DNA of 23,433 nucleotides from NCBI GenBank assembly GCA_026415985.1, contig JAOAGA010000010.1:1-23433 (forward strand), given 5' to 3'. The stretch comes from Pseudomonadota bacterium (GTDB lineage Bacteria > CALINM01). Shown here piece after piece: positions 147 to 22,045 of the stretch. The position numbers were made by a program, and so were the translations under genes. How positions within the stretch are numbered: position 1 is the first letter of the stretch; every line of letters starts with the position of its first letter. The notes beneath the pieces are model-generated. The model did no database searches and was not told the origin of the DNA. It saw nothing but the letters and a program-made list of their open reading frames with translations.

Positions 147-176
147 TTGACTTTCATTTCTGATTTTTAATAATAT
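147..176 (+). promoter_or_regulatory. Likely housekeeping promoter of the pyr operon
   Basis: TTGACT at 147-152 is five of six to the -35 consensus. TAATAT at 171-176 is a good -10, and the spacer is 18 bases. The predicted start of transcription is about 183-185. It lies upstream of the pyr leader and pyrR, and no other gene precedes it on this strand. Confidence 0.55.
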
Positions 177-187
177 ATTATTTCAAG

Positions 188-256
188 ATGATAAAAGAAA
201 TATTAATAACTCATTCAGAGTTAAAAACCTCCTACGGGAGGTTTTTTTATGAGTAA
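188..256 (+). CDS. Possible pyr leader peptide, 22 codons
   Basis: ATG at 188 opens a 22-codon frame ending in TAA at 254-256. It runs through both leader hairpins and overlaps the pyrR start by eight bases (the junction reads ATGAGTAA). The peptide begins MIKEILITHSEL and ends YGRFFYE. There is no Shine-Dalgarno, but the predicted transcript starts only 3-5 bases before the ATG, so translation would have to be leaderless. A ribosome on this frame would melt the hairpin that holds the pyrR ribosome binding site. It resembles in layout the translated leader of enterobacterial pyrBI, but there is no proof of translation and a frame this short can occur by chance. Confidence 0.3.
   Translation: MIKEILITHSELKTSYGRFFYE
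207..248 (+). promoter_or_regulatory. pyr leader hairpins: attenuator-like stem enclosing the pyrR Shine-Dalgarno
   Basis: Two stem-loops share base 223. The first pairs TAACTC (207-212) with GAGTTA (218-223) around a five-base loop. The second pairs AAAAACCTCC (223-232) with GGAGGTTTTT (237-246) around a TACG loop, and seven Ts at 242-248 end at the pyrR ATG. The second hairpin therefore has the form of an intrinsic terminator, and its 3' arm is also the pyrR Shine-Dalgarno (GGAGG, 237-241, seven bases from the ATG). It could control pyr expression by attenuation, by hiding the ribosome site, or both. The known Bacillus-type PyrR-binding loop sequence is not evident. Confidence 0.6.
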
Positions 257-806
257 GGCAAGAAAGGAAGTTCTTATTTTTGATGAAAACTCCTTCAAAA
301 GGGTTATTAGCAGGATTGCCAGTGAGATAATTGAAAAAAACCCTGATCTTGATAAACTTGTTCTTATAGGTATCAAAAAGGGGGGAACCTATCTTAAAGA
401 GAGAATAAAAAAAGAGATTGAAGAACGCGAAAAGGTAAGCCTGTACTCCGGAGATATAGATATAACTCTTTATCGTGATGACATCAGAAGGATAGGTTAC
501 AACCCAAAGATTGATACAACAGAGATACCCCTTAATCTAACCGACAAATATGTGGTGCTAATTGATGATGTATTGTTTACCGGCAGAACGGTTCGTGCAG
601 CGATGGATGCACTCTTTGATTTTGGCAGACCAAAAAGAATTCAGTTAGCGGTCATGGTCGATAGGGGACACAGAGAGCTTCCCATTCAGGCTGATTTTGT
701 TGGAAAAACGGTTCCAACCTCAAGAAAGGAGATTGTTGAGGTTAACTTTAAAGAGGTTCAGGGTAAAGATTGTGTAATATTGAGAGATAATAATGCAAAA
801 AGATAA
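249..806 (+). CDS. pyrR: PyrR: bifunctional pyrimidine operon regulator / uracil phosphoribosyltransferase
   Basis: A 185-residue type I phosphoribosyltransferase of normal PyrR length. The PRPP-binding loop is at about residues 102-117 (VVLIDDVLFTGRTVRAA), and the N-terminal GIKKGGTYL segment is also typical. PyrR proteins bind pyr mRNA in response to UMP/UTP and often have uracil phosphoribosyltransferase activity. It is the first gene of a pyrR-pyrB-pyrC-carA operon, so regulation of its own transcript is expected. The start is fixed by GGAGG at 237-241, which lies inside a stable hairpin, so translation probably depends on the leader fold. It overlaps pyrB by 14 bases. The family call is firm; binding to this leader is inference. 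Confidence 0.95.
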   Translation: MSKARKEVLIFDENSFKRVISRIASEIIEKNPDLDKLVLIGIKKGGTYLKERIKKEIEEREKVSLYSGDIDITLYRDDIRRIGYNPKIDTTEIPLNLTDKYVVLIDDVLFTGRTVRAAMDALFDFGRPKRIQLAVMVDRGHRELPIQADFVGKTVPTSRKEIVEVNFKEVQGKDCVILRDNNAKR

Positions 807-1746
807 TTTTAAATGGAATAGAAAAGACCTGTTAGGGACCTATGACCTTTCAAAAGAAGAGATAATCTTTCTTCTCGATACTGCAAAATCAATGGAAGAG
901 GTGCTTAACAGGGATGTTAAAAAGGTTCCCACATTAAGAGGAAAATCCTGTGTTACCCTCTTTTATGAGCCTTCTACGAGAACAAGAACCTCCTTTGAAT
1001 TGGCGGGAAAGACAAGGTCTGCTGATACAATTAATATTTCTGTATCTGCAAGCAGTGCAGTTAAAGGAGAGACCATTCTTGACAGTGTAAAAAATATTGA
1101 GGCTATGAGTGTAGACTGTGTAATTATCAGGCACAACAACTCTGGCGTTCCGCATTTTATCGCCAGAAATACAAAACTTGCGGTTATTAATGCAGGTGAT
1201 GGCTCCCATGAGCATCCAAGTCAGGCTCTGTTAGATCTCCTGACAATAAGAGATTATAAAGGAACTATCGAAGGGCTGAATATAGCAATAGTAGGAGATA
1301 TTTTACATAGCAGGGTTGCAAGGTCAAATATCTTTGCCCTCAAAAAACTTAATAATAATGTTAACCTTGTTGGTCCAAAAACCTTTGTTCCCAAAGACTT
1401 TGAAAAGTTTGGTGCAAATGTCTTTCATAATTTGGAAGAGGGGCTTTCTGGTGTGGATGTTGTAATGGTTCTCAGACTTCAGAAAGAGAGAATGGGTAAA
1501 TGTTTTTATCCAACAGAGAGAGAATATGCCAAGTTTTTCTCGGTAAACAGACAGTCCATTAAGTATGCGAAAGAAGATGCCATAATTATGCATCCCGGAC
1601 CGGTCAACAGGGGGCTTGAGATATCTTCAGATGTCTTAGACGGAGAGAAATCGGTTGTTTTAGCTCAGGTAACCCGAGGTGTAGCGGTACGAATGGCAGT
1701 CCTATATACCCTTCTTTCCGGAGGAAGATTTGAAGATAGTAATTAA
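793..1746 (+). CDS. pyrB: Aspartate carbamoyltransferase catalytic subunit
   Basis: A 317-residue ATCase catalytic chain that makes N-carbamoyl-L-aspartate from carbamoyl phosphate and aspartate, the committed step of pyrimidine synthesis. The carbamoyl-phosphate site STRTR is at residues 61-65, the mobile-loop lysine is in VKGET (K91), HPSQALLD starts at H141, and HPGPVNRG lies near the C-terminus. Length and motifs are complete. No pyrI regulatory chain follows, as in Gram-positive and many deltaproteobacterial operons, so control probably comes through PyrR. The gene overlaps pyrR by 14 bases and pyrC by 17, which suggests translational coupling. Confidence 0.97.
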   Translation: MQKDNFKWNRKDLLGTYDLSKEEIIFLLDTAKSMEEVLNRDVKKVPTLRGKSCVTLFYEPSTRTRTSFELAGKTRSADTINISVSASSAVKGETILDSVKNIEAMSVDCVIIRHNNSGVPHFIARNTKLAVINAGDGSHEHPSQALLDLLTIRDYKGTIEGLNIAIVGDILHSRVARSNIFALKKLNNNVNLVGPKTFVPKDFEKFGANVFHNLEEGLSGVDVVMVLRLQKERMGKCFYPTEREYAKFFSVNRQSIKYAKEDAIIMHPGPVNRGLEISSDVLDGEKSVVLAQVTRGVAVRMAVLYTLLSGGRFEDSN

Positions 1747-3004
1747 TAACGCTACGGTTGTTACATCTTCGGGGGTTTTCCGAAAAAATATACTTATAAA
1801 AGACTGTGTTATCTCAAAGATATCCGATAGCCCTATAAGTGAACGGGGAGCAAGCTTTGTTATTAATGATAAGGATTTGTTGGTTTTTCCCGGTTTTTTG
1901 GATATGCATACCCATTTAAGAGAGCCGGGATTTGAATATAAAGAGGATATTGAAACGGGGTTAAGATCTGCCCATTACGGTGGTTTTATCGGGGTTGCTG
2001 TAATGGCAAATACCAATCCTGTCAATGATTGTTCTACTGTAACACATTTTATGATATGCAGGGCAAAAGAAACGGGAATTCCCGTTGATTTATATCCCAT
2101 AGGTGCAATTACTAAAGGTCTTAACGGTGAGACTCTTGTGGAGATGGGAGAGCTTAGATCTGCTGGGGTTGTTGCCTTTTCGGATGATGGTAAGTCTGTA
2201 ACAAACTCTGAAATTTTAAGAAGAGCCTTTGAATATGCAGAGACCTTTAATATGCCTGTTATTTGTCATTCAGAGGAGAGTTACCTTTCTAAAGATGGTC
2301 AGATAAACGAGGGTGAGATATCACTCTTACTTGGTTTAAAGGGGATACCAAGAGAAGCAGAGATATTAGGAATTTACAGAGATTTAACCATTGCCAAACT
2401 TACCGGTGGAGCTATACATATTGCCCATGTTAGCACAAAGGAAGGTGTTGAGTTAATAAGAAAGTTTAAAAAAGAAGGACTATCCGTTACCTGTGAAACC
2501 TGTCCCCAATACTTTACTCTAACTGAAAAGGAAGTTTTAGGTTATAATACCTTTGCCAAGATAAATCCACCTCTCAGAACAGAGGAGGATAGGTTAGCGG
2601 TGATTGAAGGACTCAGGGATGGGACAATAGATGTGATAGCATCAGACCATGCGCCTCATCATCTTGATGAAAAGAATTGTGAGTTCCAGAACGCCTCTTT
2701 CGGAATGATTGGATTAGAAACTATGGTTCCTTTATGTTTGGAACTTGTAAGAATGGGAATCCTCGATTTTAAAGATCTGGCAGAAAAGCTTTCGAGGAGA
2801 CCTCACAGAATATTAAATTTGAATTCGCCTAAAATAAAAGAAGGGGAGCCTGCAAATCTTACAATTATTGACCCCCATTTTGAGTGGGAAGTAAATGAGA
2901 AGACGATTCACTCTAAAAGTATAAATACACCTTTTCTGAATAAGAAATTACAGGGTAAAGCAAAATATGTAATAAAAGGAGGAGAAGCCTTTGAGCTTTT
3001 TTAA
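1730..3004 (+). CDS. pyrC: Dihydroorotase, class I
   Basis: A 424-residue class I (PyrC type of Bacillus/Aquifex) zinc dihydroorotase that cyclises carbamoyl aspartate to dihydroorotate. Metal-site motifs are intact: [10 protein letters not shown] (H60, H62), SDDGKSV (D152/D153), H180 in VICHSEE, H233 in IAHVSTKEG and D306 in ASDHAPHH. Substrate motif MANTNPV is at about 92-98. The start is TTG at 1730, supported by GGAGG at 1720-1724 five bases upstream and by the natural N-terminus ([11 protein letters not shown]). It overlaps pyrB by 17 bases and carA by 14. Some class I enzymes act with PyrB in a complex; nothing here speaks to that directly. Confidence 0.96.
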
Positions 3005-4124
3005 TAAAAAAAAGGCGGTACTTATTTTAAAAGACGGAAGGGTTTTTAACGGTTTTAACTTTGGTGCAGAAGGTGAAACAGGTGGAGAGGTAGTCTTTAC
3101 TACATCAATGTGTGGTTATCAGGAGATACTCACTGATCCGTCTTATGATAAACAGATAGTTTGTATGACCTACCCTCAGATTGGCAACTATGGCATTAAT
3201 GAGGAAGATATGGAATCAAGGATGCCCTTTGTGGCAGGTTTTGTTGTCAAAGAGTATCAAAACCAGCCAAGTAATTACAGAAGCAAGGGCAGGCTTGAGG
3301 ATTTCCTGAAAAGACATAATATTGTCGGGATAGAAGGGATTGATACAAGAGCCTTAACCGCCCATCTAAGAGAGAAGGGTGCAATGAACGGTTTTATATC
3401 AACGGTGGATTTCAATCGGGATAGTCTTCTTGAAAAGGTCTCTAAGATACCTTCAATGGCGGGCCTTGATCTGGTAAGGAATGTCAGCATTGATAAACCC
3501 TATGAATGGAAACAGGCCTTATGGAGTCTTGAGAGAGGATATGATGAAAGAGGAGATGGTAAGTATTTTATTGTTGCCTATGATTACGGTATTAAGTTTA
3601 ATATTCTGAGAAATCTTGTGAGTGCGGGATTCAGAGTGCTTGTGGTTCCTGCAGATTTCCCTGCTGAGGAAGTTTTAAAGATGAACCCCGATGGGGTTTT
3701 TCTTTCAAATGGCCCCGGAGATCCGGAGCCGGTAAAGTACGCCATAGAAAATGTTAAAAAACTTGTCAACAAAAAACCTATATTTGGCATATGTTTGGGT
3801 CATCAGATTTTAGGATTAGCATTAGGAGGGAAAACCTTTAAACTCAAGTTCGGACATAGAGGCGGGAATCAACCTGTCAAAGATTTGACTACAGGCAAAG
3901 TGGAGGTAACATCTCAGAATCACGGCTTTGCAGTAGACATAGATTCTCTTGGCGGAAAGGCAGAGGTTACCCACATAAACCTCAATGATAATACCGTTGA
4001 AGGGCTCAGGCATAAGGAATATCCGCTTTTTTCTGTTCAGTATCACCCTGAGGCTTCTCCCGGTCCTCATGATGCTTCCTATTTATTTAAGAGATTCTAT
4101 GACTTGATAGAGAGTTTCAGATAG
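2991..4124 (+). CDS. carA: Carbamoyl-phosphate synthase small (glutaminase) subunit
   Basis: A 377-residue CarA that hydrolyses glutamine and passes ammonia to CarB for carbamoyl phosphate synthesis. The N-terminal CPSase_sm_chain domain has [12 protein letters not shown] (41-52). The class I glutamine amidotransferase domain carries the triad Cys268 (GICLGHQ), His352 and Glu354 ([10 protein letters not shown]). The start is TTG at 2991 with AGGAGG at 2977-2982. It closes the recognisable pyrimidine operon. The large subunit gene carB, often directly downstream in similar operons, is not found in the window; the next gene is unrelated, so carB must lie elsewhere. Confidence 0.97.
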
Positions 4125-4128
4125 GAAG

Positions 4129-5289
4129 ATGGCTCAGTATAATCTGGTTTTAATAGGGGAATCAGATTTTACAGGTTTTTTTGCCGAAACTTTTAAAAAT
4201 CATTTAAGTTTGTTCGTTGTAAAAAACTCTAATTTTAAAAAAGGTTTTTCTGCACAATGTTTTCCCAGTAAATCTTTTATACCGGACGGTACGGAAACTG
4301 CCTCCGCCTATGGTCAGGTATGTTCTGACTTTTTCAGGATTGATTTGATACATAATCTGAATCTATTAACCCTTTTTTTTGATAGGGATTTGAGGTGTAA
4401 CAAGGATCTTCTTGATAGCTTTGTAATAAAATCGGCAGAGTATTTTGAAGTTCTAAACAATATAATAATTGAAAACTATCCTAAGGGATTAACGGGGTTA
4501 TTTTTTAAAAGACCATTATATTTTCTGAAGAATTATAAATTATTGGCTAACCTGATAAAAAACAATCCCTGTCCTACGGAAGAGTTCAAGATCTTTATGA
4601 GCGGGTTATCCTCTTTTTTCGCTCCGGGAGAAAAAAACTATAATTACTATAAGTTTTATTTATTGTTTTCTTTATTAAACAAAGAGGTTTATAAAATTAC
4701 AGATAAAACCGATAGTTTGAAAAATATTGACTCAATGGATAATGATACACTATCTGAGATAAGCTATGAGAAGACAAGATGGAAGGTTGTTTTTCATAAA
4801 GACGTTATATATGCAGATTTTATTGTAAGCGCAGTTACACCGCATATTTTTTCATTTAATGCGGTAAAGACTCCCTTTCGAACCGATTATGATCATATTT
4901 TCTACGAATTTTTTATAGATGAGATAGAGCTACCGGAACCGATGCTGGAGGAACTTGTTTTTGTAGACAAAAAAGGTCGAGAATATCTTGCCGTCAAAAG
5001 GAATAATACTTTGACCATATACTCACCGGGTAATATTGATGTAGTTCCGCAGGTAAATTTAATAGAACCATTTGTTGAACAATTTGTTCCATATCTTGAT
5101 CTTGATAAAAACATTCTGGTAAGGCCTACGGTTACTCCATACCATAAAAAGGAGAAGTTCAGAAGATTTAGAGATAAAAGAAGTTTTTATTTTCCGAAAT
5201 CTTATGACTTTCCCTACTATGGCGTTGACGGCGAGATATTATACAGAAATAAGCTAAGGGATATAATATGGAAAAAGTTTTTGTCCTGA
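4129..5289 (+). CDS. Unknown protein, weakly like amine oxidase/phytoene desaturase flavoproteins
   Basis: A 386-residue soluble protein that I cannot place with certainty. Its N-terminus (YNLVLIGESDFTGFFAE) has the position and hydrophobic strand of a Rossmann dinucleotide site but not the GxGxxG pattern. A later segment, YADFIVSAVTPHIFSF (about 227-242), resembles the 'ad-xVI-s-xxP' stretch of NAD(P)/FAD-dependent desaturase-like enzymes. The C-terminus (KSYDFPYYGVDGEILYRNK) resembles the region where those proteins close over FAD. These likenesses are by eye and weak. It starts four bases after carA and overlaps the CcsA-like gene by 22 bases, so it may belong functionally with the cytochrome-assembly-like pair. 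It may be a degenerate non-catalytic flavoprotein fold or something unrelated. Confidence 0.6.
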   Translation: MAQYNLVLIGESDFTGFFAETFKNHLSLFVVKNSNFKKGFSAQCFPSKSFIPDGTETASAYGQVCSDFFRIDLIHNLNLLTLFFDRDLRCNKDLLDSFVIKSAEYFEVLNNIIIENYPKGLTGLFFKRPLYFLKNYKLLANLIKNNPCPTEEFKIFMSGLSSFFAPGEKNYNYYKFYLLFSLLNKEVYKITDKTDSLKNIDSMDNDTLSEISYEKTRWKVVFHKDVIYADFIVSAVTPHIFSFNAVKTPFRTDYDHIFYEFFIDEIELPEPMLEELVFVDKKGREYLAVKRNNTLTIYSPGNIDVVPQVNLIEPFVEQFVPYLDLDKNILVRPTVTPYHKKEKFRRFRDKRSFYFPKSYDFPYYGVDGEILYRNKLRDIIWKKFLS

Positions 5290-5966
5290 TCTCAATCTTT
5301 TTTGTGATTTACCTAATCTTTTTTAAAAGGTTAAGAATCTTTGAGATTCTTACTGTTCTGTCAACATTAATACTTCTTCTGATTGTAGGAATCAGATATA
5401 AACATTTTCCTGTTGTAGGGCTATTTGAGACCCTTAATTTCTATGCCCTGTCCTTAATCTTGATTTACTTTATATGGGGGACAGAGGATAAAAAAATATC
5501 TAATTTAGTGTATATTGTATCATTAGTGCTATATTCATTATCTTTATTTGGTAAGCCCTTTACATCGCCCTTTGTTTCTGATTCTCTGAACACATTACTT
5601 TTTCCGGTCCATGTTGCCTTTTCTTTTATAAGTTATGCCTTTTTTACGCTTTCTTTTTTATATGCCCTTTCAGATAGGGAGACAGACAGGGTATTAAGGC
5701 TTAACTATTTGGGATTTATTACCTATACAATAGGTCTCTGGTCGGGTGGTATCTGGGCCTTTAAAGCCTGGGGTGTCTATTTTCTCTACGGTATGAAAGA
5801 AATTTTTTCTTTTGTGATCTGGATATACTATAGCGGGATTATACACCTGAAATATTCTAACAACAGAAAGCTGATTAATATAGCAACAATTGTTGGTTTT
5901 GCAATAGTTATATTTACCTATTTAGGTATAGGGCTTTTTATGAGAAATACTCACTCTTTGAGGTAG
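5268..5966 (+). CDS. CcsA-like cytochrome c assembly membrane protein with degenerate WWD motif
   Basis: A 232-residue polytopic membrane protein with about seven or eight hydrophobic segments, matching the CcsA/HemX family that handles heme for periplasmic cytochrome c maturation (System II). Family landmarks are GLFETLNFYA (51-60), H115 in FPVHVAFSFISYAFF, and H193 in IIHLKY. The tryptophan-rich heme segment aligns as WAFKAWGVYFLYGMKE (163-178). In ordinary CcsA this reads like WAxxxWGxYWxWDPKE, so W163 and W168 remain but the second half, including the Trp-Asp-Pro, is lost. Start ATG follows AAGGG (5256-5260). It is followed by a ResB-like gene. A role in heme delivery is family inference; the motif loss makes ordinary function uncertain. 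Confidence 0.8.
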   Translation: MEKVFVLISIFFVIYLIFFKRLRIFEILTVLSTLILLLIVGIRYKHFPVVGLFETLNFYALSLILIYFIWGTEDKKISNLVYIVSLVLYSLSLFGKPFTSPFVSDSLNTLLFPVHVAFSFISYAFFTLSFLYALSDRETDRVLRLNYLGFITYTIGLWSGGIWAFKAWGVYFLYGMKEIFSFVIWIYYSGIIHLKYSNNRKLINIATIVGFAIVIFTYLGIGLFMRNTHSLR

Positions 5967-5969
5967 TCT

Positions 5970-6908
5970 ATGGATAAGATAAAAAAAATATTGTTAGATA
6001 TAAATTATAGCTTCTATGCCCTTGTTCTGGCTTCGTTTTTTTGCATTCTCGGTTCATTTATAGTTTATTTCAATCCTAAACTTTATAATACCATAGACTA
6101 TAAGGCACTTTTTAAATGGCTTTATTATAATCAGTCAATAAAAAACTTTTGGTTATACCTTGTGACCATAATTTTTGTTTATCTTGGCATATCGGGTTTT
6201 TATTGTTTAATCTATGATTTTAAGAGAAAAAATATATTTACTTTAATTTTTCATCTGTCTTTTTTATTGATTCTTGTAGCCCATTTAATAAACTCTATCT
6301 ATTTTTATAAAGTTTCGGATTATATTATTCCGGAGGGCGTGCCTAAAACAATCAATCTTCCTGAATCGGATAAACCAATCAGAGTCTTTCTTGATAAATT
6401 AAACTATGATATTACAAATGAAGGCTTTATAAAAAATTTAAAGGCAGATCTGATATACTTAGAAAAGGATGAGCAGAAAAGCGGTAAGATAAGTATAAAC
6501 AATCCGCTAAAAATAGAAGGAAAATATTTAATTTTAAAGCAGGCATCACCATTTTTGAGGTCTATTACCTTCAAACTGAGAAGTGAAGAAAGACTTATCA
6601 TACCGGTGCTTACTCCGGAAGGCCCCTTTAACATTGATGGTGTCTTGTTTCAGTTTTTAGCCCATAATGAAGATATGTCAGCCTTTAAGGTTCTTGTTAT
6701 TGATGGAGACAAAAAGGAGACAATGATCTGGTCTTTGGGGCAGAATGTTAATATAAAAGGTCAGAGCTATACTATTACTCAAATAATACCTGACACCATA
6801 GGTTCGATCGTGGTGGATATTGTTTATGACCCGTCAGTTTACTTAATCTTTTTTGCATCAACGCTCTTTGTTTTTACTTCTGTAATAAGATTTTTTGAGA
6901 AGGGTTAG
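5970..6908 (+). CDS. ResB-like (Ccs1) cytochrome c biogenesis protein, short form
   Basis: A 312-residue membrane protein with three N-terminal transmembrane segments (about 13-35, 58-82 and 90-112), an extracytoplasmic domain of about 170 residues, and a C-terminal segment (about 287-306). The FHLSFLLILVAHLINSIYF segment followed by IIPEGVPKTINLPES matches the ResB pattern of a third helix leading into a beta-rich periplasmic domain. ResB partners CcsA in System II cytochrome c assembly. It is shorter than Bacillus ResB (over 500 residues), comparable to short forms seen in deltaproteobacteria-like genomes. GAGG at 5960-5963 overlaps the upstream stop and sets the ATG, implying coupling to the CcsA-like gene. 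No CXXCH cytochrome is encoded in the window. Confidence 0.7.
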   Translation: MDKIKKILLDINYSFYALVLASFFCILGSFIVYFNPKLYNTIDYKALFKWLYYNQSIKNFWLYLVTIIFVYLGISGFYCLIYDFKRKNIFTLIFHLSFLLILVAHLINSIYFYKVSDYIIPEGVPKTINLPESDKPIRVFLDKLNYDITNEGFIKNLKADLIYLEKDEQKSGKISINNPLKIEGKYLILKQASPFLRSITFKLRSEERLIIPVLTPEGPFNIDGVLFQFLAHNEDMSAFKVLVIDGDKKETMIWSLGQNVNIKGQSYTITQIIPDTIGSIVVDIVYDPSVYLIFFASTLFVFTSVIRFFEKG

Positions 6909-6924
6909 CGGTCGGTAATATCAA

Positions 6925-8886
6925 GTGAGAAAATATGTCAGTTTATCAATATTTGTCATTGCTTTTGTATTTACCTTCGTTAAGGTAAGAAGTTTTGATC
7001 TATTTTTCTATTTAAAGGTGGCACAAACAGAGAGCCTTTTTTCCCCGCTAAAGGTAAACCTGTTTTCTTATAGCCATCCCGATTTCCCCTATAATAATTA
7101 CTCTTTTTTATATTCTGAACTTGCATATTTTTTGACAGAAAATCTAAGCATCAACTGGCTTATAGTTCTGCAGTGTACCGTTATATCGCTAAGCTATATA
7201 ATTATTACAAAATCAGCTGAATACAAAAGATCGGCCATTCTTTTATTTACAGTATTTTTAATTTCTCTCTTTACTTTAAGATACAGGCTACTTTTCAGGC
7301 CCCATAATCTGAGCTATATTTTCTTTGCAATTAACCTTTTTTTGCTTACAAGGATGCCCAACAGATATTTAATCTATCTTTTTATAAATCAGATTTTATG
7401 GGTCAATACTCATAACGGTTTTATTTTAGGAATAATAAACGCAATTCTGCTATATCCATATCTAAAAGGCAGGATAAGTTTAAAAAAAATATTATTAGTT
7501 CTTTTGTCAGGTAGCCTTGTCTCTCCTCACTTTTATAAGCCTTTTATAGAAGTTGTTAACCCTTTTTTAGGAATGACTAAAAATATCTTTGATTATATAA
7601 AGGTTCATGAGTGGCAACAGGCAGATGAAAGACTATATTTTTCCTTTTACGGGCTTTTGATAGTATTTAGTTTTATAATAATGGTGAGAGATAAAAAGTG
7701 GCGACTGTTGCCCTTTTACCTTTTCTATCTGATAATTTCTGTCAGATTTGTCAGGTTTATTGATTTTTTTGCCTTTGCGGGTTTTTTTGCTGTAATTTCA
7801 ACAACCGTAAAAAAAGAAGGCCTTAATGGTACTGAAAATATAAAGATTAAAAAAATTTTCAGGCTCGCCCAAATATCTTTTCTTATAACAGTTTTTTTCT
7901 TTTGTGTTAAAGATTATTTTCAAAACCATCTGATACCCTATGGTTACGGCTTGGCAGATTATTTTTATCCTTCATCGGCTGTTGATTATTTGAGGAAAAA
8001 TGATCTCAAAGGCAATATTTTCAATACCTATGCCTTTGGTGGTTATCTAATCTATAATTTGTATCCCAACTTAAGACCAATAATTGATGGCAGACTATGT
8101 TACCCCCTTGATTTTGTAAAGCTATATGCAGATGCCCATGAAGACAGAGAGTCCTTTAATAAGATTATTGCCAAATATAAACCAGATATTTTTCTTATAG
8201 ATTTTGATCATCCTAAACTGGCTTTATTCATTACTGATTTAAAAGATCAGTTTGCCCTTACCTATTTTGACGATAATGCTATGATTTTTCTTGACAGAAA
8301 TAAGTTTAAAAGTATTGTTGAGAAAGATGAGTATAAGTTTTTAAAGCCTCTCTACGTATCTGGTTACAGCGAGGAAAAAGATACAAAAAATGTCAAGTTA
8401 GAGTTGGAGAAAAAGTTGAAAGAAAAGGAGACAAACAGAGCTAAAGTTATATATGGCAACTTATTACTTAAAGAAGGTAATATATCACAGGCAGAAAAGA
8501 TTTTTGAAAATGTTGTTAACAGTAAAACTCCCATAGGTAAGGCAGAGGCATATAATAACTTAGGGGTAATAAAGATTTCTGAAGGAAGTTTGGATTTGGC
8601 TAAAAAGTTATTTAAAAAGGCGCTATCTTTTGATAGTAATATGGGCATGGCCCATCTAAATCTTGCTCAGGTTTATGATGAAGAAAAATCTTATTTTTCA
8701 GCCTATTATCATTACAGGGAGTTTATAAAAAACAGCGAGGAAGATGTTCCTTCTGAAATTGAGGAAAGGGTTTCTTTTTTAAGAAAATATGTCTTTATAC
8801 AGTCGATGAGGATATTAATTATTTTTCTTGCAACTTCAGGAATTTTCCTAATAATTACAAGAAGGATCATAATAAACAGAAGATAA
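6925..8886 (+). CDS. Polytopic GT-C-like membrane protein with C-terminal TPR repeats
   Basis: A 653-residue protein. Residues 1-330 are mostly hydrophobic helices. The first extracytoplasmic loop starts SFDLFFYLKVAQ (D25 in the usual place of the GT-C acidic residue) and continues with a FSYSHPDFPYNNYSFLYSEL pattern typical of the PMT/ArnT-like superfamily. A soluble domain has NTYAFGGYLIYNLYPNLRPI then IDGR (367-390), a signature I associate with uncharacterised TPR-bearing membrane proteins. Three TPR units lie at about 505-532, 540-573 and 574-604, and a last transmembrane helix at 627-647. A sugar transferase role is inference; no substrate can be assigned. The start is GTG at 6925 with no clear Shine-Dalgarno, 16 bases after the ResB-like gene. 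Confidence 0.7.
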   Translation: MRKYVSLSIFVIAFVFTFVKVRSFDLFFYLKVAQTESLFSPLKVNLFSYSHPDFPYNNYSFLYSELAYFLTENLSINWLIVLQCTVISLSYIIITKSAEYKRSAILLFTVFLISLFTLRYRLLFRPHNLSYIFFAINLFLLTRMPNRYLIYLFINQILWVNTHNGFILGIINAILLYPYLKGRISLKKILLVLLSGSLVSPHFYKPFIEVVNPFLGMTKNIFDYIKVHEWQQADERLYFSFYGLLIVFSFIIMVRDKKWRLLPFYLFYLIISVRFVRFIDFFAFAGFFAVISTTVKKEGLNGTENIKIKKIFRLAQISFLITVFFFCVKDYFQNHLIPYGYGLADYFYPSSAVDYLRKNDLKGNIFNTYAFGGYLIYNLYPNLRPIIDGRLCYPLDFVKLYADAHEDRESFNKIIAKYKPDIFLIDFDHPKLALFITDLKDQFALTYFDDNAMIFLDRNKFKSIVEKDEYKFLKPLYVSGYSEEKDTKNVKLELEKKLKEKETNRAKVIYGNLLLKEGNISQAEKIFENVVNSKTPIGKAEAYNNLGVIKISEGSLDLAKKLFKKALSFDSNMGMAHLNLAQVYDEEKSYFSAYYHYREFIKNSEEDVPSEIEERVSFLRKYVFIQSMRILIIFLATSGIFLIITRRIIINRR

Positions 8887-8947
8887 TTTTCTTTAAAGAG
8901 AAATTTTTCTCATTGATAAGACAACCTTTTTTTGATACTTATTAAAT
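8887..8947 (+). promoter_or_regulatory. Intergenic region with candidate promoter for the nitroreductase gene
   Basis: TTGATA at 8913-8918 could be a -35, with a poor -10 around 8934-8941 (GATACT or TACTTA depending on spacing). Transcription would then start at or near the ATG at 8948. There is no Shine-Dalgarno. The segment also has AT-rich inverted repeats (TTTCT with AGAAA near 8888-8903; GAGAA with TTCTC at 8898-8911) that could act as a weak end signal for the upstream gene, though neither has a GC stem. Confidence 0.3.
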
Positions 8948-9544
8948 ATGAGCTTTTTAGAACTTGCTAAAAAAAGAAGAAGTATAAGACTATTCCAGCA
9001 GGACAGAGATGTCCCTAATGACTATATAAAAAAGATATTGGAAGCAGGAAACTTAGCTCCCTCTGCCCACAACAAACAATCATGGAAGTTTGTTGTTATC
9101 AGAGGCAAGAAAAAGGATGAGTTAGCTCAATTAATAACCGAGCTTTCAGAACTGTTTCCCAAAAAAAGCAGATTACTCCTTAGGATGGGTTCCAAATCAA
9201 TATTTACTGCTCCCTGTGTTATTGGGGTTTTTAGCACCGGTGAGCTTGTCTCAGAGGCAGGCGAGTATGGTGAAGATCTGAAAAAAGAGATAGAGGATTT
9301 TTTTCTTGAAATGGAGATACAGAGTGCCTCCGCTGCGGTTCAGAATATGCTTTTACAGGCAACAGAGCTGGGGCTTGGTAGCGTATGGCTCGGTGTAGTT
9401 GTTTTAGTGGCTAAACAGATTGAATCATTTTTAGGCGTGGATGGTAAGCTACTTGCGATGTTTCCCATTGGTTATCCTTCCAAAGATTATACTCCACCTA
9501 AGAAAAAGACTCTTTCAGAGGTTGTTATCGAGATTAAGGATTGA
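8948..9544 (+). CDS. Nitroreductase family FMN oxidoreductase
   Basis: A 198-residue single-domain nitroreductase fold protein. The N-terminal RRSIRLF (10-16) with its arginines for FMN phosphate and APSAHNKQSWKFVV (37-50) are typical, and ASAAVQNMLLQATELGLGSVWLGV (127-150) is the conserved central helix and loop. Such enzymes reduce nitro compounds, quinones or flavins with NAD(P)H; the substrate cannot be read from the sequence. It appears monocistronic, with gaps of 61 and 125 bases around it. No ribosome binding site precedes the ATG, and the start agrees with family N-termini (FLELAKKRRSIR). Confidence 0.9.
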   Translation: MSFLELAKKRRSIRLFQQDRDVPNDYIKKILEAGNLAPSAHNKQSWKFVVIRGKKKDELAQLITELSELFPKKSRLLLRMGSKSIFTAPCVIGVFSTGELVSEAGEYGEDLKKEIEDFFLEMEIQSASAAVQNMLLQATELGLGSVWLGVVVLVAKQIESFLGVDGKLLAMFPIGYPSKDYTPPKKKTLSEVVIEIKD

Positions 9545-9669
9545 GTTTGTTATAGCCCGAGATAGCCAAAGAATTAAAGGGTAATTTTATAAAAAATTGA
9601 GATACCAGCTAATTATTCCGCATCTTGATTTTAGTTTTTCAGAAAAAACTTTCTTAATAAATTTTTTCT
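9545..9669 (+). promoter_or_regulatory. Intergenic region with candidate promoter upstream of the helical-repeat gene
   Basis: The gap is 125 bases. A -10-like TTAATA at 9654-9659 lies ten bases before the ATG. A TTGATT at 9625-9630 is present but at a spacing (23) too long for a normal -35 partner, so the promoter call is weak. There is no Shine-Dalgarno before 9670. I see no GC-rich terminator for the nitroreductase gene. Confidence 0.25.
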
Positions 9670-11190
9670 ATGAAAAATAAAGTTGATTCTAAAGTCAGCA
9701 ATATCTTGCTTATCAGAAGAAATATCCTTGAATATTTAAAGGAGGTAGAGTATTCCAAAGACATTGATTTGGAAACCCTCGAGAGGGTAGGTGAGTATTT
9801 TTTAAGATATGAAGAGTTAGTAACGCCAATTCTTATTGAGGAGTTAGAAAAGAAGGAAGGGACTAAAACTCTTAACAAGTTTGAATATCTTTTAAAATAT
9901 TTGGACAATCCAAATCTTGTAAGACCATTGATTGATGCATTAATTAGAAATAAAGATAAAACAAAATTAAAAACAACGATTTTAAGGGTTCTTAAATATT
10001 ACAACGTCGATTTTTCTTTACCTCCACTGAATCAGTTTCATTCTGAATTACAGATAGAAGTGGACAAGATGGCCCATGATCTAATACAAAGCTACAATGA
10101 AAACTGGTATAAATTCCGTGATACATTTTTTGATTTTTGCTATTCAGAAGATAGTCAGATTAATATACTGAGATTAATTGAAAAAAGTGAAGATAAAAGA
10201 AAGTACGGTGTTTTGTCAACAATGTTATTGACCAATAATCATAACTTAATTACCTCAGTTATTGAGACCTTAGGAAGGTCATACGATGAAGAAGCGTTGG
10301 AGGTATTAAAAAGGGCATTGATATTCCTTCCTGTCAAGTATCATAACTTGGTGGAACTCAACCTGAGAAAACTGAGTTTTAAGAATGTCAAGGGGGCCGA
10401 CTACCTCTGTGAAGAAAATAGTATTGAGCTGTGTTATATGAGTTTTCCCTTTTCATCAGATATGAGGCAAATTATGTACATCACTAAAAAGGACAGTAAC
10501 TATATATTGATTTTAATAGAGATTGAAACTGAAAAGGGCGTGGGAGAGAATTGTATTTTCTATTTTCTGCAGAGTTTTGATGAGGCAAAAAGAATGGCAG
10601 AAACTTTTATCAGAAATCTTAATCTGAAGGAGGTTACAAACGGTTATGATATAAAAATGATAAATAGCGCCATTTTTTTTAATTATGTTAATGATTACAG
10701 GTTCACCCCTTACTTTTCTGTCTTGTTAAACTTTTTACCATCCTATTATTTCAAACCCGTTCTTTATAGCTCTGATAAGATAAGAGAGAAATTTCAGGTT
10801 ACCGGCGACAGGGAATGGCTTCTTAAAAATTCTGATAAACTATGGTACCTGACAGACAAGCTGGGATGGCTATCGGAAGATTATCAGTTCCGGTCAATTG
10901 TAGATAGGTGGTATGGCAATACAAAAAAGGAAGAGCATTTATGGATGGATGAACTACTTATCAAAAAAGTCTTGAGGGAGATAATCCTTTCTGATATAAA
11001 TAACTGGAAAAATAAACTTCTTTTTTTGGCAGATTTCCTTGATAATATAAATTACAAAAGAGAATATATTGAAATGATCATGGCGGTCTATGATGAGTTT
11101 ACAAAGGATATTGAAAAAATGGAGAAAATTCCTTTTATCAGAAAGCTGATTCTTGAAAGTAAGGAAATGGCTTTACTTTTTTTAATTTAG
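9670..11190 (+). CDS. Unknown protein with helical (HEAT-like) repeats
   Basis: A 506-residue soluble protein without a recognised family. The N-terminal half is almost all helix and includes units like HEAT repeats, for example YLDNPNLVRPLIDALI (about 77-92, continuing to 110) and LLTNNHNLITSVIETLGRS (about 186-204, continuing to 222). Residues about 250-320 look alpha/beta (ELCYMSFPF, then YILILIEIETEKG and an FYFLQSFDEAKRMAETFI helix), and the C-terminal 80 residues are helical again. There is no signal peptide or membrane segment. HEAT-type proteins are usually scaffolds. Its TAG stop overlaps the Shine-Dalgarno of gpsA, so it heads the gpsA-gpmI-comF-helicase operon. The start ATG has no ribosome binding site. 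Confidence 0.75.
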   Translation: MKNKVDSKVSNILLIRRNILEYLKEVEYSKDIDLETLERVGEYFLRYEELVTPILIEELEKKEGTKTLNKFEYLLKYLDNPNLVRPLIDALIRNKDKTKLKTTILRVLKYYNVDFSLPPLNQFHSELQIEVDKMAHDLIQSYNENWYKFRDTFFDFCYSEDSQINILRLIEKSEDKRKYGVLSTMLLTNNHNLITSVIETLGRSYDEEALEVLKRALIFLPVKYHNLVELNLRKLSFKNVKGADYLCEENSIELCYMSFPFSSDMRQIMYITKKDSNYILILIEIETEKGVGENCIFYFLQSFDEAKRMAETFIRNLNLKEVTNGYDIKMINSAIFFNYVNDYRFTPYFSVLLNFLPSYYFKPVLYSSDKIREKFQVTGDREWLLKNSDKLWYLTDKLGWLSEDYQFRSIVDRWYGNTKKEEHLWMDELLIKKVLREIILSDINNWKNKLLFLADFLDNINYKREYIEMIMAVYDEFTKDIEKMEKIPFIRKLILESKEMALLFLI

Positions 11191-11202
11191 GAGGAAAAAG
11201 AG

Positions 11203-12213
11203 TTGAAGGTATCTATAATCGGTGCGGGAAGTTTTGGAACCGCAATATCTCAATTATTTTCAAAAAGTTTCGGTGAAGTTCATCTGTGGGTTTACGAAGA
11301 AGAAGTATACAGAATGATAATTCAGGAAAGGGAAAACAAGGTCTTTATGCCGGGATTTAAACTTTCCGATAATATAATCCCAAGCCTTGATATGGAATCG
11401 GTCTTAAAAGATTCAAAATATATATTTGTTGCAGTTCCATCCCATGTTTTCAGAAATGTCCTGAACGTAATGAAGCCCCATATCCCTAAGGATTCAACTA
11501 TAATATCCGTTGCTAAAGGTATTGAAAATAAAACCAATTACCTTATGATTGAGGTAATTGAAGATGTTTTAGGCAGACATTCACTTGATAAGGTCTGTGT
11601 TCTTTCAGGTCCGAGTTTTGCAAAAGAAGTAATAGAAGGCAAGCCAACATTAGTTGTCGTTGCGGGAAAAGATAGTGAAAGGGCTGAGACCATTCAGAAA
11701 ATTTTTTCCACAAATTCATTCAGAATCTATACATCCGATGATGTTACAGGAGTAGAGCTTGGCGGGGCGTTGAAAAATGTTATCGCTATCTCTGCGGGCA
11801 TTTGTGAAGGCATGAAGTTAGGTTATAACGGAATGGCCGCACTCATTACAAGAGGTTTGGCAGAGATGACGAGATTGGGTGTTGCCATGGGGGCTAATCC
11901 TTTGACTTTTAAGGGACTCTCTGGTATAGGTGATCTTGTCCTTACCTGCACAGGATCGTTAAGCAGAAACAGACAGGTTGGGATTAAACTTGCCGAAGGT
12001 TTTAAGATAGAAGAAATAGAAAGGGATATGAAAATGGTTGCAGAGGGAGTAAGAACTTCTTTATCTGTTTATGAGCTTTCTAAAAAATATGAGGTCGATA
12101 TGCCCATATCAAAGGAAGTTTATAAGATTATATATCATAAAAAAGATCCTAAAACCGCTCTTAAAGAGCTGATGGAAAGAAAGCTTAAATTTGAAAGAGA
12201 GTATATTTTTTAG
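11203..12213 (+). CDS. gpsA: Glycerol-3-phosphate dehydrogenase (NAD(P)+)
   Basis: A 336-residue GpsA that reduces dihydroxyacetone phosphate to sn-glycerol-3-phosphate, the backbone for phospholipids. The N-terminal nucleotide site is GAGSFGTA (7-14). Other signatures are VAVPSHVFR (77-84), KGIE with K105, SGPSFAKEV (135-143), the catalytic lysine K191 in GALKNVIAI, and GIGDLVLTCTGSLSRNRQVG (241-260) with D244, R255 and N256. Length is normal. The start is TTG at 11203, set by GGAGG at 11190-11194 and by the glycine-rich loop beginning at residue 5. It lies between the helical-repeat gene and gpmI. Confidence 0.97.
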   Translation: MKVSIIGAGSFGTAISQLFSKSFGEVHLWVYEEEVYRMIIQERENKVFMPGFKLSDNIIPSLDMESVLKDSKYIFVAVPSHVFRNVLNVMKPHIPKDSTIISVAKGIENKTNYLMIEVIEDVLGRHSLDKVCVLSGPSFAKEVIEGKPTLVVVAGKDSERAETIQKIFSTNSFRIYTSDDVTGVELGGALKNVIAISAGICEGMKLGYNGMAALITRGLAEMTRLGVAMGANPLTFKGLSGIGDLVLTCTGSLSRNRQVGIKLAEGFKIEEIERDMKMVAEGVRTSLSVYELSKKYEVDMPISKEVYKIIYHKKDPKTALKELMERKLKFEREYIF

Positions 12214-12222
12214 GAGGGTATT

Positions 12223-13755
12223 ATGTACCCAGTTTTTTTAATTATCTTAGATGGTTGGGGAATAGGCAGGGAAGAGGAAACCAATGCTGTATATAAAGCT
12301 AACGCCCCTTTTCTTAAAAGTTTATTCAATAATTTTCCTCATTGTCAGTTGATTACGTCCGGAGAGGCGGTTGGGCTTCCGGAAGGACAGATGGGGAACT
12401 CTGAAGTGGGACATTTAAATATAGGTGCAGGCAGGATTGTTTATCAGGATCTGACAAGAATTTCAAAAGAGATTAGGGAAGGTGTTTTCTTTCAGAACAA
12501 GACCTTGCTTACCGCCATTGATAAGGCATTAAAAAATAATTCAAAGCTTCACCTCATGGGTCTGGTTTCTGACGGTGGGGTTCATTCTCATATAGAACAT
12601 CTTAAGGCTCTTCTGGTATTTGCTAAGGAAAAGGGCCTTTCTGATGTAGTTATTCATACCTTTACCGACGGGAGAGATACCCCTCCGGACAGTGGTATCG
12701 GGTATGTAAAAGACTTGAAAAACTTTGCAGATAATCTTGGGATAGGTAGATTTGGTGTTTTATCAGGCAGATATTATGCTATGGATAGGGACAAAAGATG
12801 GGACAGGACCCAACTTGCCTATGAAGCCTTAACCTTAGGAAAGGCACCCTTTTATGCCAGTGATATTATAGAAGGGGTGGCGAATGCCTATGAAAGAGGG
12901 GAAACAGATGAGTTTATAAAGCCCACAATAATAAAAAGCGAGAAAGATATAACTATCAAAGATAAAGATGCGGTAATATTTTTTAATTTCAGAGCAGACA
13001 GGGCAAGACAGCTTACCTACGCCCTTACAGAAAAGGATTTTAATAATTTTGAAAGAAAGGCAAAACCAGATATTTCTTACTATGTAACTATGACTTTATA
13101 TGATGAGAAGCTTAAGAATGTTAATGTTGCCTATCCACCGGAGGTTTTGAGAAACATACTCGGAGAGGTAATATCTCAAAACAAGTTGCCTCAGTTAAGA
13201 ATCGCAGAAACGGAGAAATACGCCCATGTTACCTATTTTTTCAATGGCGGAGAGGAAAGACCCTTTGAACTTGAAGACAGATGCCTGATTCCTTCTCCGA
13301 AGGATGTCCCTACCTATGACTATAAGCCTGAGATGAGTGCCTTTGAAGTTACCGAAGAGGTTTTAAAGAGACTTTCCGAAGACAGGTATAAGTTTATAGT
13401 CTTAAATTATGCCAATATGGATATGGTAGGGCACACAGGTTCTCTGCCATCGGCAATAAAGGCAGTTGAGGCAGTTGACAGATGTGTTTCAAAGCTCATT
13501 CCCGCAATACTTGACAAAGGCGGAACTGTTTTTTTAACGTCCGATCACGGAAATGCAGAACAGATGGCAGAAGAAGATGGCTCGCCCCATACCGCTCATA
13601 CAAAAAATCCTGTTCCGTTTTTTTTCATAAGTAAAGGTTCAGGTTTAAAATTAAGAAACGGAAGGCTCTGTGATATAGCACCAACAATACTCTCCTATTT
13701 GGCTATTAAAAAGCCTAAAGAGATGACCGGTGAATCACTTTTTATCAAAGATTAA
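12223..13755 (+). CDS. gpmI: 2,3-bisphosphoglycerate-independent phosphoglycerate mutase
   Basis: A 510-residue cofactor-independent mutase that interconverts 3- and 2-phosphoglycerate in glycolysis and gluconeogenesis, using two manganese-type metal sites. The alkaline-phosphatase-like metal ligands are D10 (ILDGWG), S60 (the phosphoserine in MGNSEVGHLNIGAGR), D400 and H404 (NMDMVGHTG), D441 and H442 (TSDHGNAEQM) and H459. Substrate residues are in FTDGRDTPP (147-155) and FFNFRADRARQ (253-263). GGAGGG lies just upstream of the ATG. It overlaps the comF-type gene by 26 bases. Confidence 0.97.
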   Translation: MYPVFLIILDGWGIGREEETNAVYKANAPFLKSLFNNFPHCQLITSGEAVGLPEGQMGNSEVGHLNIGAGRIVYQDLTRISKEIREGVFFQNKTLLTAIDKALKNNSKLHLMGLVSDGGVHSHIEHLKALLVFAKEKGLSDVVIHTFTDGRDTPPDSGIGYVKDLKNFADNLGIGRFGVLSGRYYAMDRDKRWDRTQLAYEALTLGKAPFYASDIIEGVANAYERGETDEFIKPTIIKSEKDITIKDKDAVIFFNFRADRARQLTYALTEKDFNNFERKAKPDISYYVTMTLYDEKLKNVNVAYPPEVLRNILGEVISQNKLPQLRIAETEKYAHVTYFFNGGEERPFELEDRCLIPSPKDVPTYDYKPEMSAFEVTEEVLKRLSEDRYKFIVLNYANMDMVGHTGSLPSAIKAVEAVDRCVSKLIPAILDKGGTVFLTSDHGNAEQMAEEDGSPHTAHTKNPVPFFFISKGSGLKLRNGRLCDIAPTILSYLAIKKPKEMTGESLFIKD

Positions 13756-14452
13756 AGGTGGTCTATCGGGGTTTTTTAGTTTTATTGCCGATGAGAGATG
13801 TTTGGGCTGTGGACGGGAGAGTGGTTTCATCTGTAAGAACTGCTACAGCAAGATAACCTTCAATAAAAACTTTTGCTGTTATTGTGCCTATCCCCTGCCG
13901 GATAGTATTGAAAAATCCATCTGCGGTAGTTGTCTAAACTCAAAACCTTTATTTTCAAAGACAGTTGCTCCGTTTATTTATGAAGGAATAGTAAGGGAAA
14001 TATTGCTTTCTGCTAAATTCAGCGGGAATTACTACTATTATGAAAGGCTTATAAATCAATTTTGGGATGAGTTTGAAAATTTATTAAAAGCTTTTTTTGA
14101 CGCGGAAGTTATAGTTCCTGTGCCACTATCAAGAAAAAGGTTAATTGAAAGGGGTTATAATCAGGCAGGTTTAATAGCAAAATATCTTTCTAAAAAGCTT
14201 AATAAGCCTGTCATTTTATCAGCTCTGTCAAAGACCATCGAAACAAAACCTCAGAGTCAGTTGGGCGAGAGGGAAAGACATAGTAACATAAAAAACGCCT
14301 TTTGCTTAAAAAAAACTATTAATTTTAGTAAAATTATCATAGTAGATGATATAATAACTACGTCTGCAACTGTCAGTGAAGTGACAAAAGTTTTAAAAAA
14401 GGGGGGAGTAAATGAGGTATATATATTTTCACTTTGCAGAGCAGTTTTTTAA
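13730..14452 (+). CDS. ComF family phosphoribosyltransferase-like protein
   Basis: A 240-residue ComF/GntX-type protein. An N-terminal cysteine-rich region has CLGC (24-27), CKNC (35-38), a CCYC cluster (49-52) and CGSC (65-68), enough for two zinc ribbons. A type I phosphoribosyltransferase domain follows, with VPVPLSRKRLIERGYNQA (129-146) and the PRPP loop IIIVDDIITTSATVSE (202-217). ComF is needed for DNA uptake in naturally competent bacteria, but homologues are widespread in bacteria that are not competent; its exact reaction is not settled here. The GTG at 13730 lies inside the end of gpmI and is the only reasonable start before the first zinc cysteine. It overlaps the next gene by 41 bases. 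Confidence 0.9.
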   Translation: MNHFLSKIKGGLSGFFSFIADERCLGCGRESGFICKNCYSKITFNKNFCCYCAYPLPDSIEKSICGSCLNSKPLFSKTVAPFIYEGIVREILLSAKFSGNYYYYERLINQFWDEFENLLKAFFDAEVIVPVPLSRKRLIERGYNQAGLIAKYLSKKLNKPVILSALSKTIETKPQSQLGERERHSNIKNAFCLKKTINFSKIIIVDDIITTSATVSEVTKVLKKGGVNEVYIFSLCRAVF

Positions 14453-15044
14453 ATCTGAAAAGTGCAGATTTTTACTATTTGTTTTTTCAGCCTTTTTGGT
14501 TACACTGTTGATTTCTTCAGGTCAACTTTTCTCAGCGGTTTATTATATTGATGAAAGGGGTGTAGTGCATTTCGTTGATGATGAGACGTTGATACCTGAG
14601 AAATACAGAGGACAAAAACGGGTAATTGAAAGAGATGACGATTCGGTTGTAACACCTAAGACTGATAAAAAGGATACCATAACAAAAGAAGAAAAGGAGC
14701 AACCGAAGGATAAGTTTGGCAATTCACCATCTTTCTGGAGGCAGAAGTATAAGGGACTGGTAAATGAAAAATATAAGAAAGAAAGGGAGCTGAGAGATCT
14801 GGAAAGCCAGAGAGATGAGCTTAACAGAAGATATGAGAGTGTCAGGACAAGGGCCTTTTTTGTTGGTGATTCCCAAAGTGTTACTGAGGCAGGTGCTTTA
14901 GAGATAAAAATACGAGAGCTTGAAAATATGATTAAGATTACTATTCAGCAGTTAGATGAGTTGAATAAAAGAATTTCTGTTGATATATACAATGAGGTAA
15001 TTCAGGCAGGGGGAAGGACAGAGTGGCTCATGTTGGAGGAGTAG
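14412..15044 (+). CDS. Exported DUF4124-like protein with coiled coil
   Basis: A 210-residue protein. A hydrophobic segment at about 20-41 (FLLFVFSAFLVTLLISSGQLFSA) acts as a signal peptide or anchor, followed immediately by VYYIDERGVVHFVDD (43-57) and IPEKYRGQ, the pattern of DUF4124 domains. Residues 80-105 are a charged linker, and about 107-190 are heptad-like helix (KKERELRDLESQRDELNRR, later ELENMIKITIQQLDELNKR). The function is unknown; such proteins act outside the cytoplasmic membrane. The start is supported by GGGGGGAG at about 14401-14407. Because it starts well inside comF, its first 18 residues are unusually long and polar before the hydrophobic core. Confidence 0.75.
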   Translation: MRYIYFHFAEQFFKSEKCRFLLFVFSAFLVTLLISSGQLFSAVYYIDERGVVHFVDDETLIPEKYRGQKRVIERDDDSVVTPKTDKKDTITKEEKEQPKDKFGNSPSFWRQKYKGLVNEKYKKERELRDLESQRDELNRRYESVRTRAFFVGDSQSVTEAGALEIKIRELENMIKITIQQLDELNKRISVDIYNEVIQAGGRTEWLMLEE

Positions 15045-17848: not shown

Positions 17849-17893
17849 TTACGATACTCCGAAATTTTAAATATTTGATAAGGCATTAATACT

Positions 17894-17969
17894 AATGAAA
17901 TTTTTCAGAAAAGACTGAATAAAAGATACAACCCGAACATCAAAAAAGTGGAAAAAAATGAAATTTTTC
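17894..17969 (+). repeat. Thirteen-base direct repeat in the helicase-prfB gap
   Basis: AATGAAATTTTTC occurs at 17894-17906 and again at 17957-17969, with starts 63 bases apart, about six helical turns. A related GAAATTTTTCT lies at 8900-8910 upstream of the nitroreductase gene. The sequence is AT-rich, so chance is possible. It may mark a regulatory site upstream of prfB. Confidence 0.3.
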
Positions 17970-17977
17970 TTTAAAAT
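17949..17977 (+). promoter_or_regulatory. Candidate promoter of prfB
   Basis: TAAAAT at 17972-17977 is a plausible -10 and TGGAAA at 17949-17954 a weak -35 at a 17-base spacing. The start of transcription would be about 17984, a few bases before the prfB ATG at 17990. No Shine-Dalgarno lies between them. The 141-base gap before prfB is the largest in this half of the window, so a promoter is expected here. Confidence 0.35.
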
Positions 17978-17989
17978 AAACATCTTGCT

Positions 17990-19099: not shown

Positions 19100-19114
19100 C
19101 TTGGAGGATATAAT

Positions 19115-19855
19115 ATGGCAGGCCATTCTAAATGGGCACAAATCAAACACAAAAAGGCGGTAGTTGATGCAAAAAGAGGAAAGATATTTACCAAGATTGC
19201 CAAGGAAATAACCGTTGCGGTGAGATTAGGCGGTAAAGATCCTGAAATGAACCCGCGTTTGAGAACAGTAATTGCCAAAGCGAAAGCGGTAAATATGCCA
19301 AATGACAATATAGAAAGGGCTATCAAAAAAGGGACAGGAGAGTTACAGGACTCTCAGTACGAAGAGATAAGATACGAAGGTTACGGTCCCGCAGGTGTTG
19401 CAGTTATGGTTGATGTTATGACCGATAACAAAAACAGAACCGTTGGTGAGATAAGACATCTCTTTTCAAAATACAACGGAAATTTAGGTGAATCGGGTTG
19501 TGTAAGCTGGGTTTTTGACCAGAAAGGTTATTTTGTCTTTGATGATTCTGTAATATCGGAAGATGAGCTGATGGAGATTGCCCTTGAAGCAGGGGCGGAA
19601 GATGTTAAAAGGGATGATAAGTCTCTGGAAGTTCTTTGTGCACCGGAAGATTTTGATAGGGTTAAAGAGGTCTTTGACAAAAAAGGATTGAAATACAATC
19701 TGGCAGAAGTAACAATGATACCCAAAAATTATGTGGAGATCAGGGATAAAGATGCCCAGAATATGCTAAAACTATTTGAGGCATTAGAAGACCACGATGA
19801 TGTTCAGAACGTCTATGCAAATTTTGACTTGCCAGAAGATATGAATATCGAATGA
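19115..19855 (+). CDS. yebC: YebC/PmpR family protein
   Basis: A 246-residue protein of the YebC/TACO1 family. The N-terminus [22 protein letters not shown] is diagnostic, followed by IFTKIAKEI and the [17 protein letters not shown] segment. Members have been described as DNA-binding transcriptional regulators and, more recently for some, as factors that help translation of difficult proline-rich stretches. GGAGG sits before the ATG. Its place between prfB and ruvC fits the conserved yebC-ruvCAB order and, with prfB, a translation link. Length is standard. Confidence 0.95.
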
Positions 19856-19900
19856 ATCTTTACGGGATCATTGAGTAAGGAAGGTTTGCAGGAGAAAAAG

Positions 19901-20970: not shown

Positions 20971-20976
20971 TTATTT

Positions 20977-21999: not shown

Positions 22000-22024
22000 A
22001 AAATATGCAAGATGTATATCGTTT

Positions 22025-22045
22025 GGCAGAAAATGCCCTTTTTTT
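22025..22045 (+). terminator. Weak terminator-like hairpin after ruvB
   Basis: GGCA (22025-22028) can pair with TGCC (22034-22037) around a five-base loop. One C and seven Ts (22039-22045) follow. The stem has only four pairs, so termination is possible but likely weak. The T-run also pairs with a nearby run of six As (22050-22055). Confidence 0.3.

Follow-up and report, generated by a model that had tools for sequence, protein, structure and literature searches.

The stretch of DNA analysed here, hereafter the window (23,433 nucleotides from a Pseudomonadota bacterium), begins with a pyrimidine operon that is opened by pyrR and preceded by a leader of about 65 nt, and the question raised by this locus is how such a short leader might control an operon that encodes PyrR. 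What can be read in the letters is the position of a promoter, a leader frame, a hairpin, a hidden Shine-Dalgarno (SD) sequence and the lack of a recognisable PyrR site (Table 1). Judged by these features and their comparison across genomes, the leader is real, conserved and regulatory, and is best explained as a form of ribosome-dependent pyr attenuation, in which translation of the leader frame probably activates the operon with no need for the usual PyrR-binding RNA. This explanation, to which we would commit about half of our confidence, is that the pyrRBC-carA operon is induced by pyrimidine shortage through the leader, acting as a compact ribosome-dependent attenuator.

Table 1. Features of the pyr leader and operon in the window.
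Feature	Position	Strand	Remark
Predicted promoter	147..176	+	TTGACT 147-152, 18-nt spacer, TAATAT 171-176; near-consensus
22-codon leader frame MIKEILITHSELKTSYGRFFYE	188..256	+	ATG start; TAA 254-256 inside pyrR
Upstream stem TAACTC 207-212 / GAGTTA 218-223	207..223	+	Candidate pause hairpin
Terminator-like hairpin, TACG loop, T7	223..248	+	5' arm is anti-Shine-Dalgarno and pyrimidine run; kept in three genomes
GGAGG, pyrR Shine-Dalgarno (SD)	237..241	+	In hairpin 3' arm; 7 nt from ATG
pyrR	249..806	+	NCBIfam NF003549, 240.8 bits vs cut-off 138
pyrB, aspartate carbamoyltransferase	793..1746	+	
pyrC, dihydroorotase	1730..3004	+	
carA, carbamoyl-phosphate synthase small subunit	2991..4124	+	

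The first gene encodes a standard PyrR protein, with 1non, 1ufr and 1a3c as solved PyrR relatives of its product. The window was compared with two relatives, G001 (locus L084) and G002 (locus L083), which belong to one genus and are the only two others compared in the phylum. R19, H140 and R141 (B. subtilis numbering) are conserved in all three PyrRs. At the position of B. subtilis H22, which presumably matters for RNA binding by PyrR, 106 of the 110 PyrRs compared have histidine, those of both relatives included, and the PyrR of the window (249-803) has serine. Loss of RNA-binding residues was considered as proof of PyrR independence and rejected, since only H22 is altered, and in the window genome alone. 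At the other end of the operon, both relatives (L174 and L175) have carB and greA after carA, where the window (4125-23433) has unrelated genes, thus the operon is shorter than in the relatives.

Direct reading of the leader gives a stem of ten pairs formed by AAAAACCTCC (223-232) and GGAGGTTTTT (237-246) around the loop TACG (233-236), together with a T-run (242-248) that ends at the pyrR ATG (249), and GGAGG is the sole SD sequence for pyrR; a preliminary description had reported this same arrangement, and its coordinates were verified. The ten pairs consist of five C/G-rich pairs (CCUCC/GGAGG) and five A-U pairs, the latter drawing on the T-run. The energy of the hairpin beats that of at least 99.8% of shuffles in each of the three genomes (p = 0.001, 0.0007 and 0.002), the fold of the whole window leader has z = -2.8, and the terminator score d is clearly positive (34-38, by the d'Aubenton-Carafa formula). 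The predicted probability that the pyrR SD is unpaired is 0.000-0.002 in all three leaders. Masking the leader in a static fold, tried as a model of SD release, was set aside as uninformative, since the SD then paired elsewhere in the predicted structure.

A comparison of orthologous leaders, which the preliminary description had proposed as a check, showed that the hairpin is kept in both G001 and G002, where the stem is CCTCCC/GGGAGG with the loops ACAA and TGCA and thus differs from the window hairpin by one added C-G pair and changed loops. Common to the three genomes are an A-tract, CCTCC(C), a loop, (G)GGAGG, T7 and ATG, of which T7 is exactly kept. Ribosome binding alone would be reason enough to keep the SD arm, yet the CCTCC arm, for which there is no such reason, is kept as well. 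This conservation of the hairpin and SD arrangement supports the earlier proposal of an attenuator combined with a hidden ribosome site. In a 262 kb sample of the window's genome, a perfect hairpin with at least four G-C pairs and a T-run adjoining the start was found at one of 669 candidate starts of long frames, namely that of pyrR, and a search of the three genomes for other genes whose start immediately follows a CCTCC-GGAGG-T6 hairpin likewise found pyrR alone. No similar leader was found at pyrE or pyrF. The gene 5' of the leader, named by sequence and without a family search, we take to be hemB in G001 and a cation transporter in G002, and the contig of the window begins upstream of the leader; since the upstream genes differ between the relatives, the hairpin goes with pyrR and is not the terminator of a fixed upstream gene.

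The ATG-initiated frame of 22 codons from 188, already described as crossing both stems and ending inside pyrR, was confirmed in its coordinates and is kept in both relatives. The leader peptides are MIKEILITHSELKTSYGRFFYE in the window and MKKTIFERPCSKNLPQGRFFYE and MNIVALKYSNIENLPAGRFFYE in the relatives, of 22 codons each, and in all three genomes the frame ends ...GRFFYE-stop inside pyrR (ATGAGTAA), although these last codons are not independent evidence because the hairpin arm, the T-run and the first pyrR codons (MSK) dictate them. Over leader nucleotides 4-36, identities across the three genome pairs were 14, 9 and 11 of 33, which is about that of unrelated AT-rich DNA, i.e. background; the same stretch is of equal net length, is free of stops and has a constant distance to the ATG in 3/3 genomes. 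When leaders were shuffled or generated by a first-order random model, a read-through ATG frame of equal length in all three had a chance of 2e-5 to 2.5e-5, and the chance that both relatives would match the 22 codons of the window was 5e-5 to 1e-4; the agreement of G001 and G002 may be partly inherited within their genus, though their intervening sequence is at background identity. As the 22-codon frame is kept despite unrelated sequence, what seems to be conserved is that the frame is translated, not which peptide it yields.

The predicted promoter implies a transcription start at about 183-187 and is consistent with the leader length of about 65 bases given in the preliminary description. 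In the leader comparison the promoters of G001 and G002 read TTGACA, 17 nt and TAAAAT, and 9-11 nt separate the -10 hexamer from the leader ATG in 3/3 genomes, nine in each of the two relatives. The leader ATG is therefore placed almost at the predicted 5' end of the transcript, a point that had been missed. No SD precedes the ATG at 188, thus translation of the leader would need initiation at or near the 5' end, for which the trpL leader of Sinorhizobium meliloti, whose start lies at the transcript 5' end, offers a precedent (PMC7298713). In G001 (L084, 1402-1445), AATTTTG stands just 5' of the leader ATG and resembles the slippage start of pyrBI, but it is too near the -10 hexamer.

The six-pair stem at 207-223, also reported earlier, is real, with the correction that base 223 is claimed by both this stem and the terminator-like hairpin, thus both cannot be complete simultaneously and they compete for that base. 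Stems in similar places differ by genome, being TTTTTGAA/TTCAAAAA in G001 and ATATTG/CAATAT in G002, and they end at frame position 36, 37 or 32 in the three leaders. Compared with shuffles, p was 0.04 in the window, 0.12 in G001 and 0.03 in G002 (combined 0.007), which is suggestive of a pause hairpin and supports this role weakly. No long alternative pairing that would form an antiterminator exclusive with the terminator was found in the folds, and in the window the upstream stem shares base 223 only with the terminator stem. ACTCAT (209-214) is a perfect complement of ATGAGT (249-254) at the pyrR start in the window fold, but this pairing is missing from the G002 fold and has an imperfect counterpart in G001, thus it deserves little weight.

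Termination, translation of the frame, the coupling of the two and the nucleotide signal are what we infer from this arrangement. Transcription would begin a few bases 5' of the leader ATG. By default, with no ribosome close behind the polymerase, the hairpin (223-246) and U-run would form and end transcription, and in those transcripts that escape termination the hairpin would keep the pyrR SD paired. A ribosome on the 22-codon frame would cover the 5' arm, prevent or melt the hairpin and expose the SD, and on stopping at the TAA, which overlaps the pyrR start, it could restart at the ATG (249-251). The preliminary description had spoken of three layers of control; one hairpin for both termination and SD hiding is retained here, but the layers would not be separate, because a ribosome on the leader frame would lift the two effects at once.

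Intrinsic terminators placed shortly after a start codon are efficient, as the first ribosome has not yet caught up with the polymerase. In E. coli, translation cost a terminator placed 30 bp downstream of the AUG only about 10% of its efficiency, about 90% being kept, and the same paper attributes the coupling of ribosome to polymerase in the pyrBI leader to pausing (PMC4824070). In the present leaders no more than about 35 nt separate the leader ATG from the hairpin, thus a ribosome would catch up only if the polymerase were slowed, either at the upstream stem or at the CCUCCU pyrimidine run, which is the 5' arm itself. Slowing of the polymerase would occur when UTP or CTP is scarce; low UTP/CTP is thus the likely signal, and the operon would be induced by pyrimidine shortage. 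Counting against the attenuator as we propose it, the stretch from the leader ATG to the hairpin is not U-rich (about 30% U, 9-11 U of 33 per genome), and the sole pyrimidine-rich run is the conserved CCUCC(C). The dependence on leaderless initiation, the weakly supported upstream stem and a comparison of three genomes, two of them congeneric, count against it too. A more specific and less probable version would be a minimal pyrimidine attenuator that does not use the encoded PyrR as its sensor. In it, a near-leaderless 22-codon frame would race the polymerase, and one helix would serve as pause tract (by its C/U-rich 5' arm), terminator and hidden SD, controlling transcription and translation at once.

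Control by PyrR itself, for which the preliminary description had cited precedents, has no sequence support in this leader. The PyrR binding loop (RF00515) was not found in the window, neither at the gathering score nor at E up to 10 across positions 1-900, and it was not found at the pyrR leaders of L083 and L084, whereas the same search matched L088, L090, L095-L097, L100, L102 and L103, eight control loci that score above or somewhat below the RF00515 cut-off. No match over the cut-off occurs anywhere in the three genomes, a result that is weak alone as several genuine-looking control loops also fall under the cut-off, and a motif scan of the best RF00515 matches revealed no PyrR loop. The Rfam matches to Phe_leader, STnc370 and RNAI were rejected, being far under cut-off and reflecting only a hairpin with a T-run. 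It could still be imagined that PyrR-UMP binds the leader RNA at a site that is not recognised, perhaps the hairpin of the ribosome-binding site, and blocks translation of the leader or of pyrR so that the terminator forms, as has been proposed for Thermus or described for mycobacteria. The place of pyrR as first gene, the conserved R19, H140 and R141 with H22 in the siblings, and the occurrence of a PyrR loop followed by a terminator in many other phyla all speak for such control, but it would have no visible site: besides the failed searches, the predicted transcription start leaves no room for a loop before the leader ATG, the only RNA conserved in the three genomes is the hairpin, the start region and the SD, and the nearly universal H22 is replaced by serine in the window genome. 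We thus consider PyrR control unlikely.

Somewhat less probable still is that the hairpin acts in translation only, hiding the SD until leader translation opens it by coupling, with little or no termination. The nearly zero unpaired probability of the SD and the overlap of stop and start (ATGAGTAA), which suits restart, agree with this; however, the A-tract, the short C/G-rich stem and the seven U in all three leaders exceed what SD hiding needs and are requirements of an intrinsic terminator, and the U-run is exactly conserved. Sensing at initiation, by UTP-dependent slippage or start choice at the T-run (TTT/TTTT) between the -10 hexamer and the leader ATG with a passive hairpin, would draw on the letters near the start (AATTTTG in G001, GCTTTG in G002 and ATTTC in the window), but in G001 the distance of just 3-4 nt from the -10 hexamer to the AA is too short for a start, and the conserved frame and hairpin would be left unexplained, which makes this quite improbable. 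We give marginally less credence again to an absence of regulation, where the hairpin would be local 5' structure or a shared terminator and the frame fortuitous: pyrE and pyrF are indeed without such a leader, but the conservation despite unrelated intervening sequence, the uniqueness of the hairpin, T-run and start in the 262 kb sample and the different upstream genes of the relatives argue against it.

The closest published idea, not mentioned in the preliminary description, appears to be the attenuation model for the pyr operon of Thermus strain ZO5 that Van de Casteele et al. reportedly proposed in 1997. As in that model, the leader precedes a pyrR-pyrB-pyrC cluster, a leader frame runs through the terminator before pyrR (in 3/3 genomes here), and it is a translating ribosome, not an antiterminator stem, that is proposed to prevent the terminator. 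Unlike in that model, no PyrR site to control translation of the leader frame was recognised here, the promoter lies 9-11 nt before the leader ATG, which puts this ATG at the predicted start of the transcript, and one arm of the terminator doubles as the pyrR SD. In the Thermus-like locus L095, a PyrR loop has the leader SD directly behind it, whereas here we found neither the loop nor a leader SD.

The present leader resembles pyrBI of E. coli and Salmonella in having a frame that crosses a (here predicted) intrinsic terminator ahead of the first structural gene and would serve to couple ribosome to polymerase, in the stem 5' of the terminator, and in needing no regulator protein under the proposed mechanism. 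The pyrBI leader frame has 44 codons. That leader is much longer than the 65 nt or so and 22 codons seen here, where a U-rich pause tract is also lacking (again 9-11 U of 33 per genome), the terminator overlaps the ribosome site and the operon starts with pyrR. Bacillus PyrR attenuation (RF00515) likewise has a terminator, predicted here, before a PyrR-encoding pyr operon, but the binding loop, antiterminator and anti-antiterminator have no counterparts in our leader. As in mycobacterial translational repression by PyrR, the pyrR ribosome site is hidden in an RNA hairpin, which here is a plain hairpin with a T-run and without a recognised PyrR loop. The leaderless trpL of S. meliloti, like the frame predicted here, begins at the transcript 5' end, but it senses amino acids by regulatory codons (PMC7298713), and none are evident here.

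If the attenuator proposed here is real, a pyr operon that encodes PyrR would be ruled by a race of ribosome and polymerase instead, and an RNA of about 65 nt would be enough for such a switch. This also suggests that a module of leader frame and terminator can stand without a PyrR loop, linking the Thermus and enterobacterial schemes. Among the 110 pyrR loci compared, the three studied here are the only ones that lack a PyrR loop and carry the hairpin followed by T7 and ATG at the homologous start of pyrR, and loci of many other phyla have a PyrR loop and then a terminator.

Leader frames also occur behind PyrR loops. We rejected terminator-crossing frames as a general feature of such loci, as 18/28 in frame compared with 12 and 16 for the other frames was not significant. 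In L034, L051, L090, L092, L095 and L098, leader frames start 4-11 nt after the PyrR loop and cross the terminator; singly these look convincing as terminator-crossing leader frames, and the AAGG arm of the loop could serve as their SD. In five loci of Acidimicrobiales (L067, L073, L076, L077 and L081), the terminator adjoins an inner pyrR start and an ATG or TTG lies upstream in frame with pyrR, so the order is PyrR loop, in-frame start and then a hairpin (ACGCCCCC..GGGGGCGT with a T-run) within the N-terminal coding part of pyrR, where pyrR seems to serve as its own leader frame.
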